Below, piece after piece: positions 6,512 through 28,741 of a stretch of DNA of 39,563 bases. The stretch covers positions 1-39,563 of IMG/VR virus record IMGVR_UViG_3300014497_000015; one strand, given 5' to 3'. The stretch's first letter is position 1, and the number at the start of each line of letters is the position of its first letter. Origin of the DNA: a virus. A program made the position numbers and the translations under genes. The notes below the pieces were generated by a model that had not been told where the DNA came from, did not search any database, and saw only the letters and a program-made list of their open reading frames with translations.

Positions 6512-7213
6512 TCAATATCCTCTCTGAGCGCGGCGCTGCTGTGCATACTGCTGACGCTGGGCGATCAGCGGGTTTTGCTGGCCTTGGGCGATCTGTGCGA
6601 GCGTTTGCGGGCCGCTCATGTTCTGCTGTGCCGGGCCGTTCGCCATTGGCTGCTGTTGCTGACCCTGGGAAAGCAGGCCGTAGACCTTCTGGCCGGTACT
6701 CGCCGCATCCATGTACGGTTTGGCCTGGGTGTTGAAGTTTGACAGGCTGGTGCCCATCGAACCGAGCAGTCCCGGAGACGATCCACCAGCGTACGCGGCG
6801 CTCCCGGCCTGACCTGTTACCAGCGGCTGGCCAAGGCCATACCCAGCAGTCGGTGCCGAACTCGCAGCCGCAGTGCCTGCGCCACCAGAACCGCCACCCA
6901 GCAGCCCGCCGGCCGCACCGCCCGCTGCGCCGCCGGCGTAGATGGACGCGATGGTCTTGGCGATCGTGTGCATGGTCTTGCCAGGGCCGGTGTTGATCCC
7001 TGCGTCCTGGGCTTCTTCGTAACGCTGCGGTGCCGCGCCGCCCCACTGGTCAACGAGCGGCTTGTCGTTGGTGCCCAGCACCTTGTTCCAAACGTTGGTA
7101 GAGAACGGGTCAGCAGAGCCATAGAGCAGCCGTGCCGGGTTCTGACCAACCTGCTTGCCCATGGCGCCCAGGTTGAACATTTCGAAGCTGCCAACATCGC
7201 CGAAGAAGCTCAT
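6512..7213 (-). CDS. putative internal virion protein
   Basis: This 233-residue protein starts MSFFGDVGSFEMF, with ATG overlapping the previous stop (ATGA). A hydrophobic Gly/Ala-rich stretch lies at about residues 88-120 (AGGAAGGAAGGLLGGG-like) and the C-terminal third is Gln-rich. The low complexity and small hydrophobic patch resemble proteins that leave podophage capsids to help DNA cross the envelope. That role is inferred from neighbours and composition. Confidence 0.6.
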   Translation of the reverse strand: MSFFGDVGSFEMFNLGAMGKQVGQNPARLLYGSADPFSTNVWNKVLGTNDKPLVDQWGGAAPQRYEEAQDAGINTGPGKTMHTIAKTIASIYAGGAAGGAAGGLLGGGSGGAGTAAASSAPTAGYGLGQPLVTGQAGSAAYAGGSSPGLLGSMGTSLSNFNTQAKPYMDAASTGQKVYGLLSQGQQQQPMANGPAQQNMSGPQTLAQIAQGQQNPLIAQRQQYAQQRRAQRGY

Positions 7214-13127: not shown

Positions 13128-13424
13128 CTATTTCCTGAAGATCCGAGCGAGTCGCCCGGCCTCTTCGTACTGTTTGAGCTTGTGCGCGGCCAACTTCCCG
13201 GTATCGATGTAACCGGTCAGCACCTCGCGGAACTTGCGGCTGGTCTTGATGAGCTGCCATAGGGCCTCTTTGCCCTCTTTGTCACGCGCCGGGCAGCCAA
13301 TCCACTGCTCCATCACCTCGCGGTCGATGGCGTCCAGCGCTTCCTTCAGCAGCTCGTTTTCCAGCAGCTGGAGCGCGACCTGGCCCCGGCTTTGTTGTTC
13401 CAGCAGATCAGAATCACTGGCCAT
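13128..13424 (-). CDS. hypothetical protein between portal and scaffold
   Basis: This 98-residue helical protein begins MASDSDLLEQQSRGQ, with ATG 13424 inside the last codons of the portal gene and a GAGGA ribosome site 8 bases upstream. It contains a conserved-looking LLENELLKEALDAIDREVMEQW segment and a basic C-terminus. Small ORFs with this look follow portal genes in related podophages; role unknown, possibly head completion. Confidence 0.75.
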   Translation of the reverse strand: MASDSDLLEQQSRGQVALQLLENELLKEALDAIDREVMEQWIGCPARDKEGKEALWQLIKTSRKFREVLTGYIDTGKLAAHKLKQYEEAGRLARIFRK

Positions 13425-25440: not shown

Positions 25441-25501
25441 ATAAGCCTGCTTATATCCTAGTGATGCGCAGGCTTATTTGCAACAAGATAAGAGGGCTTA
25501 T
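25441..25501. promoter_or_regulatory. three-copy operator region between cI and cro (oR-like)
   Basis: Three 14-bp sites of the form ATAAGCNNGCTTAT lie 23-24 bp apart: 25441-25454 (perfect dyad), 25464-25477 (12 of 14 match) and 25488-25501 (ATAAG-AGGG-CTTAT). They overlap the promoter elements on both strands. The same dyad occurs at 26848-26886. Tripartite spacing is as in lambda oR; binding by CI and Cro is inferred. Confidence 0.8.
25455..25483 (-). promoter_or_regulatory. PR-like promoter for cro operon
   Basis: On the - strand TTGCAA (25483-25478) and TAGGAT (25460-25455) are spaced by 17 bp. The spacer is the middle operator, and the outer operators flank both elements, so repressor binding would block it. 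Confidence 0.65.
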
Positions 25502-26847: not shown

Positions 26848-26886
26848 ATAAGCAATCTTATTGACGACTAGGATAAGCAGGCTTAT
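26848..26886. promoter_or_regulatory. second operator region (oL-like)
   Basis: Two 14-bp sites, ATAAGCAATCTTAT (26848-26861) and ATAAGCAGGCTTAT (26873-26886), repeat the dyad found at 25441-25501, with a 25-bp step. They bracket and overlap the PL promoter elements, so CI would repress both arms. Confidence 0.85.
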
Positions 26887-26889
26887 ATT
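26861..26889 (+). promoter_or_regulatory. PL-like early promoter
   Basis: TTGACG (26861-26866) and TATATT (26884-26889) are spaced by exactly 17 bp, a near-consensus promoter. The -10 overlaps one operator and the -35 abuts the other. Predicted start near 26896. Confidence 0.85.
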
Positions 26890-27121: not shown

Positions 27122-27316
27122 ATGAACGCCAAAAAATGCAAAGCAATTCGTCGCACGCTGAAATCAGAAGGTGTTGACGTAAAAGAAACCGACTACGTCG
27201 GAGGATCGCTTGACGACAAGTTCGGACGCGATCGGGTTCGCCATCTCAACGTCGCGCAATGTCAACTCAAATCCTGTGGGCGCCTGGCCTACAAGAAAGC
27301 AAAACGCGCCGCTTAA
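27122..27316 (+). CDS. small basic hypothetical protein, first gene of the left arm
   Basis: This 64-residue protein (MNAKKCKAIRRTLKSEGVDVKETDYV) is very basic, with a Lys/Arg/Ala-rich C-terminus. ATG 27122 has GGGAG upstream; the longer in-frame start lies inside the leader hairpin. Its basic character and first position could suit an RNA-binding role such as an antiterminator, but this is only position-based. Confidence 0.72.
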   Translation: MNAKKCKAIRRTLKSEGVDVKETDYVGGSLDDKFGRDRVRHLNVAQCQLKSCGRLAYKKAKRAA

Positions 27317-27350
27317 ACAACCAGCGCCACGACAGCCTGTCGTTAACTGC

Positions 27351-27489
27351 CCGATCCTCTCTATGAGAGCGCATCGGGGTGTGATCTGAATCCTGCCGCC
27401 AAGCAGCACAGCTTCTATTCAGCGAGATCCGGAGGAATGAACTCGGGTCGATGCAGGGATTGGCACCTGCCAGATCACACCCCGATGCG
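27351..27489 (+). ncRNA. candidate structured RNA element A
   Basis: A local hairpin (CCGAT 27351-27355 with ATCGG 27373-27377, inner CTCTC/GAGAG) shares its 3' half with a 19-bp perfect long-range helix: CGCATCGGGGTGTGATCTG at 27370-27388 pairs with 27471-27489. The enclosed loop holds CCGGAGGAATGAACTCGG. The two pairings are mutually exclusive. Region 27317-27702 has no convincing gene. A second copy with the same plan but different arm sequences is at 28305-28441. Confidence 0.55.
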
Positions 27490-27702
27490 GATGAATGCCC
27501 AGGCTGATGGGCAAGTGTAAGACCTGAGGGATCGCGGGAATCGTGGCCGGTAGAGTGAGTAAGCGCCCAGATGACCACGGCGAGTCCAAGAATAAGCGGC
27601 TGAAACCTTCGCCCCGGTGAAACTCCGGTGTCACTAAGGCCGTGAATAGTCATGCCGGGATCAGCTCCGGCCATCTGCATCAACACCCAACCGGAGAACA
27701 CC

Positions 27703-27822
27703 ATGCTCCAGATCATCATGATCGGCGCAGCGCTGAGTCATGTGCGGCCAGAACCGCCTGATGATGATGTTCGACTGCCAACCGATCCGCCCGGCCACAT
27801 CCGGGAAAAGCCTCGATTGTAA
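27703..27822 (+). CDS. 39-residue hypothetical protein
   Basis: This small ORF (MLQIIMIGAALSHVRPEPPDDDVRLPTDPPGH) has a short hydrophobic start and a Pro/Asp-rich tail. CGGAGA sits about 7 bases before the ATG. It lies alone between folded noncoding stretches. Function unknown. Confidence 0.5.
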   Translation: MLQIIMIGAALSHVRPEPPDDDVRLPTDPPGHIREKPRL

Positions 27823-27929
27823 TGACGGGGTGCCGATTGGTTCTGGCCAATCAGCGTCCCGCCAAAAATTCACAAACCTGGATATCAGATGGCCTACTGC
27901 TGTTTCAGGATCGCCATCTGGCTTTACAA

Positions 27930-27954
27930 GTGCTGTCTAAACCCCAGACAGCAC
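27930..27954 (+). other. strong hairpin upstream of the HTPGPW gene
   Basis: GTGCTGTCT (27930-27938) pairs perfectly with AGACAGCAC (27946-27954). There is no U-run, so it is unlikely to terminate. Two smaller stems precede it in 27823-27925. Confidence 0.65.
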
Positions 27955-27980
27955 TCGAAAGCCATGAACGGAGAAAGACA

Positions 27981-28277
27981 ATGGGAAATACTCACACGCC
28001 AGGCCCTTGGGTTCTAAAGCATATATCCGGCAGCAATTTCGCTGTTCAACGGTTTGAAATTCGCTCCGGATCCGGCATGCCCCATCCGATTTTCAACAAG
28101 GACACCAGCGCAATCGACGGAACTTCAGTTTGCATGTCGCCACAGGATGCCAAGCTGATCGCCGCCGCGCCGGATCTTCTGATCGCGCTCACCAAGTGCC
28201 TTGATCTGCGAGGCACGCTCGAAATGCATGGCCTGCTGGCTGAAGTCGAAGCTGCCATAGCCAAAGCGACCAAATAG
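27981..28277 (+). CDS. HTPGPW-type phage protein
   Basis: This 98-residue protein starts MGNTHTPGPWVLKHISGSNFAVQ and has the conserved DAKLIAAAPDLLIALTKCLDL segment. This family is widespread in phages and prophages of Proteobacteria, usually in early regions, with no settled function. GGAG lies about 8 bases before the ATG at 27981. Confidence 0.85.
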   Translation: MGNTHTPGPWVLKHISGSNFAVQRFEIRSGSGMPHPIFNKDTSAIDGTSVCMSPQDAKLIAAAPDLLIALTKCLDLRGTLEMHGLLAEVEAAIAKATK

Positions 28278-28304
28278 TCTCCGTCGTCCGCCGTACGCAA
28301 CGGC

Positions 28305-28717
28305 CCGATATCTCTCTGGGGAAACTCGTTTAGAGAGGTGCCTGTATCGGCAAATGACCAACTTGCTTTCAGGTGTCGAACTTGAAGCCCGGCAGGAATG
28401 CAGAGTCCGGGATTAAACGACAGGTCATTTGCCAATGCAGGTACAGCTGCACACGACTCAATAGGTGGCCACTGCCTCCCCAGTGAGCGAACAAGAGGAG
28501 ATCCCACATACCCCGATGGGCTGGCATCCCTTCGGATTCCGCAATACCAGAGACGCCAAGCAGCAATAAGTCTTGGTCAGGGCTTCCCACAAATTACCGG
28601 GAGGCGCGGAAGGTAGATTGCTAGGTATTCAGCCAAGCCCTCCATCAGGAGGCAAACATCCCCTGACGTAGGGAGGTCTGCGTTAGGAAGTAAAGCCGGC
28701 TCTAGGGCCGGCTTTTT
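28305..28717 (+). ncRNA. candidate structured RNA element B with its own terminator
   Basis: Copy of element A's plan: CCGATA (28305-28310) pairs with TATCGG (28345-28350) around an inner CTCTCT/AGAGAG stem, while the same TATCGG lies in a long-range helix (28341-28359 with 28423-28441, 17 of 19 pairs). The enclosed loop has CCCGG-CAGGAATG-...-CCGGG. The stretch 28442-28690 holds more stems (for example AGGGCTT near 28580 with AAGCCCT near 28635; CCTCC/GGAGG near 28640-28652) and the region ends at an intrinsic terminator. No gene found in 28278-28741. Confidence 0.55.
28692..28717 (+). terminator. intrinsic terminator in the left arm
   Basis: AAAGCCGGC (28692-28700) pairs perfectly with GCCGGCTTT (28707-28715) over a 6-nt loop, and T-run 28713-28717 follows. 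It stands between the promoter-proximal leader genes and everything downstream, so downstream genes need antitermination or another promoter. Confidence 0.92.
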
Positions 28718-28741
28718 ATTGGGCGATTGGAGGTGATGGTG

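Follow-up and report, generated by a model that had tools for sequence, protein, structure and literature searches.

The slot of the early-left leader that in phage lambda is occupied by nutL/N is occupied in HK022 by putL, the put RNA bringing about antitermination through the zinc-binding domain of the RNA polymerase beta' subunit. Other phage leader RNAs, the CI RNA of satellite P4 and the C4 antisense RNA of P1 and P7, carry short complementary segments, and integron attC sites conserve a stem as complementarity together with a variable terminal structure. HK022 put is a compact site of about 70 nt made of two stem-loops, present on both PL and PR in copies alike in sequence (PMC9378689), and C4 antisense RNA is among the phage RNAs listed previously (PMC2864571). 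The element described here occurs twice in the PL leader of a lambdoid Pseudomonas phage, within a stretch of 39,563 nucleotides (positions 1 to 39,563 of IMG/VR record IMGVR_UViG_3300014497_000015) that we refer to as the window. It resembles put in being a hairpin-built structured RNA downstream of a lambdoid PL that plausibly acts on elongation in cis, but it is larger (about 180–300 nt), contains a long-range helix and swapped inserts, and is found only on the PL side of the window, often after the first gene. It appears to be an undescribed structured RNA, common in temperate phages of Pseudomonas, and its covariation is very strong.

Two copies in the PL leader

Genes for an O-like protein, Cro and CI were identified in the window phage (PHROGs), and its right end carries an integrase gene and a tRNA gene. 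A terminator at about 26823, 3' of cI, is followed by the PL promoter (26848–26889, + strand; TTGACG at 26861–26866 and TATATT at 26884–26889 with a spacer of 17). Two CI/Cro operator-like palindromes (26848–26861 and 26873–26886, + strand) overlap this promoter, and the ATAAGC..GCTTAT palindromes seen there also lie between cro and cI (25441 and 25488, with a half site near 25463); the element therefore sits on the PL RNA. In the leader two small genes precede a terminator at 28712 (intrinsic, 28693–28718, + strand), and a copy of the element follows each of them. The first gene (27122–27316, + strand) encodes 64 amino acids, lies directly 5' of copy A and has a stop codon that abuts its RNA frame; the second, upstream of copy B (27981–28277, + strand), encodes a 98-residue member of phrog_1273. 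An unlisted 39-codon open reading frame with a ribosome-binding site follows copy A (27703–27822, + strand) and has a relative downstream of the element in locus L093.

Copy A opens with hairpin I (ACGACA-GCC-TGTCGT, 27329–27343, + strand), followed by hairpin II (27351–27377, + strand), in which segment a (CCGAT, 27351–27355) and segment b (GCATCGG, 27371–27377) flank an inner CTCTC/GAGAG stem. Segment b continues into a variable left arm, GGTGTGATCTG (27378–27388, + strand), and after an insert (27389–27470, + strand) come the right arm CAGATCACACC and segment a', CCGATGCG (together 27471–27489, + strand), so that CGCATCGGGGTGTGATCTG (27370–27388) pairs with CAGATCACACCCCGATGCG (27471–27489) over 19 of 19 positions. 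The insert holds a 5' hairpin, CTGC-CGCCAA-GCAG (27393–27406, + strand), and a 3' hairpin, GCAGG-GATTGGCA-CCTGC (27453–27470, + strand), whose loops are complementary (GCCAA:TTGGC). In a third domain (27484–27681, + strand), GATGCGGATG (27484–27493) can pair with CATCTGCATC (segment b', 27672–27681) through 10 bp including one G-U, enclosing two further hairpins (27497–27512 and 27654–27671) with complementary loops GCTGAT:ATCAGC. Copy B repeats the plan with hairpin I GCCGT-ACGCA-ACGGC (28290–28304, + strand), hairpin II (28305–28350, + strand; a CCGAT at 28305–28309, inner CTCTCT/AGAGAG, b GTATCGG at 28344–28350) and a long helix that encloses its insert (28338–28444, + strand; a' CCAATGC at 28432–28438).

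An earlier note on this DNA had recognised two structures with a shared plan, each about 30 bases after a gene stop, and this holds: hairpin II is present in both copies, its ATCGG is common to the local hairpin and the long helix, and the stops at 27316 and 28277 precede CCGAT by 34 and 27 nt. The helix of copy A is as perfect as described, while that of copy B, given as 17 of 19 pairs, does pair but extends over 22 nt (GTGCCTGTATCGGCAAATGACC, 28338–28359, with GGTCATTTGCCAATGCAGGTAC, 28423–28444) with wobbles and a C-A mismatch of a type (CCAATGC) that recurs in homologues. Folding the copies, as the note had proposed, gave z scores of -4.5 for copy A and -4.0 for copy B against dinucleotide shuffles, with 0 of 200 shuffles as stable. 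Two of its details have to be revised. The AGGAATG hairpin that it placed in the plan is not conserved in the family, and the segment 27351–27489 is not the whole unit, since the frame extends back to the upstream stop and the third pairing reaches 27681. An open reading frame starting at the AGGAATG of copy A was also considered and rejected, the ATG being lost in relatives (ACG in locus L123).

The leader beyond copy B has conserved features of its own. A block consisting of GGTGGCCACTGCCTCCCCAGTGAGCGA and a Shine-Dalgarno-like GAGGAG (28464–28502, + strand) has a consensus 27-mer that was found in 81 stretches of viral contigs, and just 5' of the leader terminator (about 28661–28690 in the window) lies a hairpin of the type TCACATA-GGGAGGTC-TATGTGA that is conserved in homologues. 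Of 78 conserved leader blocks about 62 contain a strong Shine-Dalgarno sequence followed by a minigene of a start, 0–2 codons and a stop (ATG-AAG-TAG, ATG-AAA-TAG or even ATG-TAA), some 30–60 nt after GGTGGCCACTGCCTGCCCAGTGAGCGA in loci L130, L169, L206 and others; further examples lie near 13311 on the - strand of phi297 (L430) and near 1967 in L417, and the window block (28464 onwards) seemingly has no minigene ATG. These recall the bar minigenes of lambda, which read ATG-ATA-TAA (PMC8012679). In locus L280 the early-left first-gene slot, directly upstream of the element, encodes a 59-residue protein that is CsrA/RsmA-like by sequence.

Homologues and covariation of the closing helix

At least about 300 homologues were found among IMG/VR contigs, named Pseudomonas phages and Pseudomonas genomes. 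BLAST of the region returned conserved patches in PseuP_224, Aurca01, phi1, MD8, Orimi01 and others, and these relatives, when folded, have the same plan with different arms; the element region is not mentioned in the PseuP_224 paper. A pattern scan of genome contigs gave 79 stretches, mostly Pseudomonas, in 52 of which the element was recognised, and one hairpin-II variant is present in 23 of 299 genomes of one Pseudomonas genus group, with 0 in the reversed control. In MD8 and phi1 the element lies left of cI in the early-left region, phi297 has a diverged element between two terminator-like hairpins, and no such element was seen in phage D3. We note in phi297 (L430, 12900–13157) an overlap between the annotated CDS phi297_00020 and a 20-bp long-range helix built in the same style; the CDS is probably a misannotation. 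At least 317 copies could be oriented, of which 289 are non-redundant, and 301 were kept as reliable. True copies in the window are on the + strand (PL side) only, no matching element being found on the PR side; one minus-strand match by similar rules looks spurious.

The frame of the element consists of hairpin I, hairpin II (CCGA...GCATCGG; 26 to 46 nt long in homologues) and a 3' CC(G/A)ATGC, enclosing a swappable insert with an 11-bp closing helix whose sequence is highly variable. CCGA, GCATCGG and CC(G/A)ATGC hardly change, and the inner stems of hairpin II, the arms and the inserts vary. Whichever gene precedes it, the frame starts from that gene's stop codon: CCGA stands 36–38 nt after that stop in 137 of 265 loci, and the genes concerned are unrelated. 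The region does not code for a conserved protein, the reading frame not being preserved and the inserts being unrelated with lengths that do not differ by threes.

The long helix is real and is formed by RNA, and it has been freely rewritten on both sides while still pairing. This is very strongly supported by covariation and bears out the compensatory change that the earlier note had suspected from the two copies alone. Among 93 distinct arm pairs, positions 2–10 form Watson-Crick pairs in 93% of cases and carry about 1.2 bits of mutual information per pair, and the arms fall into 15 families whose representatives pair at 8 or more of 9 positions with their own partner, as against 2 of 210 cross pairs. 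Sliding the partner lowers pairing from 0.97 to 0.32–0.41, and a set of 24 diverse sequences has a covariation score of 0.618, compared with 0.145 (sd 0.015) for shuffled and at most 0.096 for slid alignments. Pairing statistics from the later sets are inflated, the calling of elements there having demanded an arm match; the unconditioned check is a set of 235 hairpin-II anchors picked without regard to the arm, in which a manual count found the complementary right arm missing from only about 5, the chance of such an arm being estimated at about 4% per 400 nt. Covariation is also seen in the outermost pair of the long helix (C-G to U-A) and in the stem of hairpin I, where both sides have changed in 4 of 6 pairs. 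A CRP-like TGTGATC..GATCACA in the commonest arms is absent from the other arms and was treated as coincidence.

A stem that persists as complementarity around exchanged sequence recalls integron attC and might instead belong to the DNA, serving mosaic phages as an inverted-repeat cassette or a recombination linker; genes and inserts are indeed exchanged mosaically between conserved flanks, and the window phage encodes Bet and an exonuclease. Within the 93 arm pairs, however, 31 G-U combinations stand against 7 A-C, a bias indicative of single-stranded RNA from the + (transcribed) strand, and the orientation relative to the upstream gene is constant, with only one insert found reversed. The element further differs from attC in its constant outer core and in having no integron context, and a DNA-level role, already disfavoured, is highly improbable.

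The diversity of the arms could also be read as specificity. If the variable arms were an RNA determinant of superinfection, like seqA/B/C in satellite P4, one would understand why they diversify with compensatory changes around a fixed core. This is very unlikely: 51 of the 93 arm pairs belong to one family around GTGTGATCT, the arms of two copies within a phage are sometimes almost identical (L128, L180), the phages possess CI in any case, and there is no c4-type Rfam match. With the P4 CI and C4 RNAs the element has in common that it is a phage leader RNA with short complementary segments, yet its complementarity is long-range and in cis and spans the 15 arm families. At the gathering thresholds of Rfam 15 no model, including C4 (RF01695), matches at the element, whether in the window or at any of 23 related loci, so that the absence of a fitting named family, as supposed at the outset, holds at that level; none of the weaker Rfam matches involves the element either. 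Elsewhere on the contig of locus L108 (7546–7624) there is a Proteo-phage-1 RNA (RF03044), unrelated to the element.

Exchange of inserts within the frame

The inserts are about 30–180 nt long and purine-rich, and those of the 301 reliable copies among the matches listed fall into 82 unrelated clusters. Insert type is nearly independent of the upstream gene (25 same pairs against 14.5 expected, with a maximum of 24), and with so little association the idea of a toxin-antitoxin arrangement was dropped. Relatives of the 64-residue protein in L417 and L418 (84% and 73% identity) precede elements with other arms and inserts, which shows that the RNA part is exchanged independently; we know of no precedent for insert swapping that is independent of the neighbouring genes. 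The stability of inserts is overall near that of shuffles and marginally greater (mean z -0.39), and they were accordingly not taken as globally stable RNAs. A role as an RsmA/CsrA sponge was rejected as well, the GGA motifs (ANGGA 15 versus 9 on the other strand) being explained by purine richness.

Complementary loops of 5' and 3' hairpins (score of 6 or more) occur in 21% of insert clusters as opposed to 3% of cross pairs, and a cruder test requiring at least 5 bp gave 19 where about 9 were expected. The loop pairs differ between clusters (GCTGAT:ATCAGC, GCGAT:ATCGC, CTGGCT:AGCCAG, CTGCCA:TGGCAG, in addition to that of copy A), and this complementarity supports predicted loop-loop docking for some members of the family, roughly one in four or five insert clusters. 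In some inserts a hairpin like a T-arm adjoins the right arm, and a tRNA D-arm is present in some as well (D-arm/T-arm inserts in L173, L070, L320, L417 and L071); docking may extend to these tRNA-like inserts. The T-loop signature GGTTCGA is found 7 times in inserts and 0 times on the other strand. ARAGORN reported no complete regular tRNA at the element, its single call being a tRNA-??? with an abnormal anticodon loop inside the L071 insert (about 6783–6854). The likeness to tRNA thus lies in D-arm and T-arm sequences beside a closing stem; that stem is about 19 bp long, however, no CCA end is shown, and most inserts are not tRNA-like.

Such modularity raises the thought that the inserts are the business end, the frame presenting structured and in some cases tRNA-like RNAs that act early and in trans on host or defence factors. 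The 82 unrelated clusters and their near independence of the neighbouring gene, the tRNA-like examples and the early-left position are all compatible with a swappable payload, but this is rather unlikely for RNAs that have no known target, are not strongly structured overall and are under CI repression. Slightly less probable still is a fuller version, in which kissing-hairpin and tRNA-like inserts are swapped within the constant frame and expressed first as counter-defence or host-takeover RNAs.

The helix itself may serve RNA processing or stability, a doubtful reading that nevertheless has something in its favour. A near-perfect duplex of about 19–22 bp, with arms free of sequence conservation, would suit an RNase III site at which the long early-left transcript is cut, or might shield its ends; the intergenic position, which in roughly half of loci is 36–38 nt beyond the stop, would agree with this, and where inserts are T-arm-like, with the GGTTCGA signature, the site could, as a variant of the same reading, be one for RNase P. 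Processing would leave unexplained, however, the invariant CCGA/GCATCGG/CC(G/A)ATGC core and the downstream b'.

Competing pairings and control of early-left transcription

The core and the downstream segment would allow the RNA to refold. The four segments a, b, a' and b' permit 1:2 and 3:4 pairing as against 2:3, as in amino-acid-type attenuators. In 71% of homologues CTGCAT is found no more than 262 nt from a', compared with 16% and 8% further away, and (C)TGCATC lies in the same range in 62% of loci, compared with 14–29% further away. The a/b/a' core is fixed and single-partner stems change freely, as expected if each core base has two partners. The local CCGAT:ATCGG pairing is 97.5% complementary and never varies among homologues, and for this invariance covariation neither supports nor refutes the a:b hairpin. 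The competition proposed in the earlier note between local hairpin and long helix is therefore permitted by the sequence, with a further competing strand downstream, and a switch between alternative pairings is plausible. In a nested energy model of the window b:a' is favoured by about 9 kcal/mol, so switching would have to be kinetic. That the switch is a riboswitch, as had been suggested, is unsupported, the 82 insert clusters offering no conserved ligand-binding core and no sign of ligand sensing. Attenuation survives as a topological analogy only, since no U-run follows the alternative pairs; unlike an attenuator, moreover, the element has its terminator (28712) some 1 kb beyond b' and shows no matching leader peptide.

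We tentatively favour control in cis of early-left transcription near the leader terminator, a function that we consider possible and that is read from sequence patterns. Hairpin II (a:b) would form first, during transcription of the leader; as the right arm emerged, the variable arm would nucleate pairing and a would be displaced, giving the long b:a' helix, and the third strand, b', would later compete for a'. The insert would determine the delay, and loop-loop docking would stabilise the fold in some members of the family. What counts would then be the final fold rather than the sequence: by affecting how polymerase elongates or terminates in the leader, it would time the reading of the early-left genes. 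In this it would resemble both RNA antiterminators, HK022 put for one, and attenuators that choose between 1:2/3:4 and 2:3 pairing, and be identical to neither. In favour of this are the CI/Cro operators at the promoter, the covariation of the arms, the terminators downstream, the enrichment of b' and the complementarity of the loops. Across loci intrinsic terminators concentrate between -600 and -1500 (the end on the cI side) and between +300 and +1000, with hardly any in the interval. The model is weakened by the presence of a strong downstream terminator in only about one third of loci, by the lack of covariation in the competing segment and by the marginal stability of inserts, and a put-like form of it by the finding of nothing matching on the PR side of the window, put being on both arms.

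The element fills the slot that belongs to nutL/N in lambda and to putL in HK022, which makes the read-through of the early-left leader in lambdoid phages of Pseudomonas directly testable, and its rewritten closing helix beside a locked core is a clean natural experiment on a bistable RNA.
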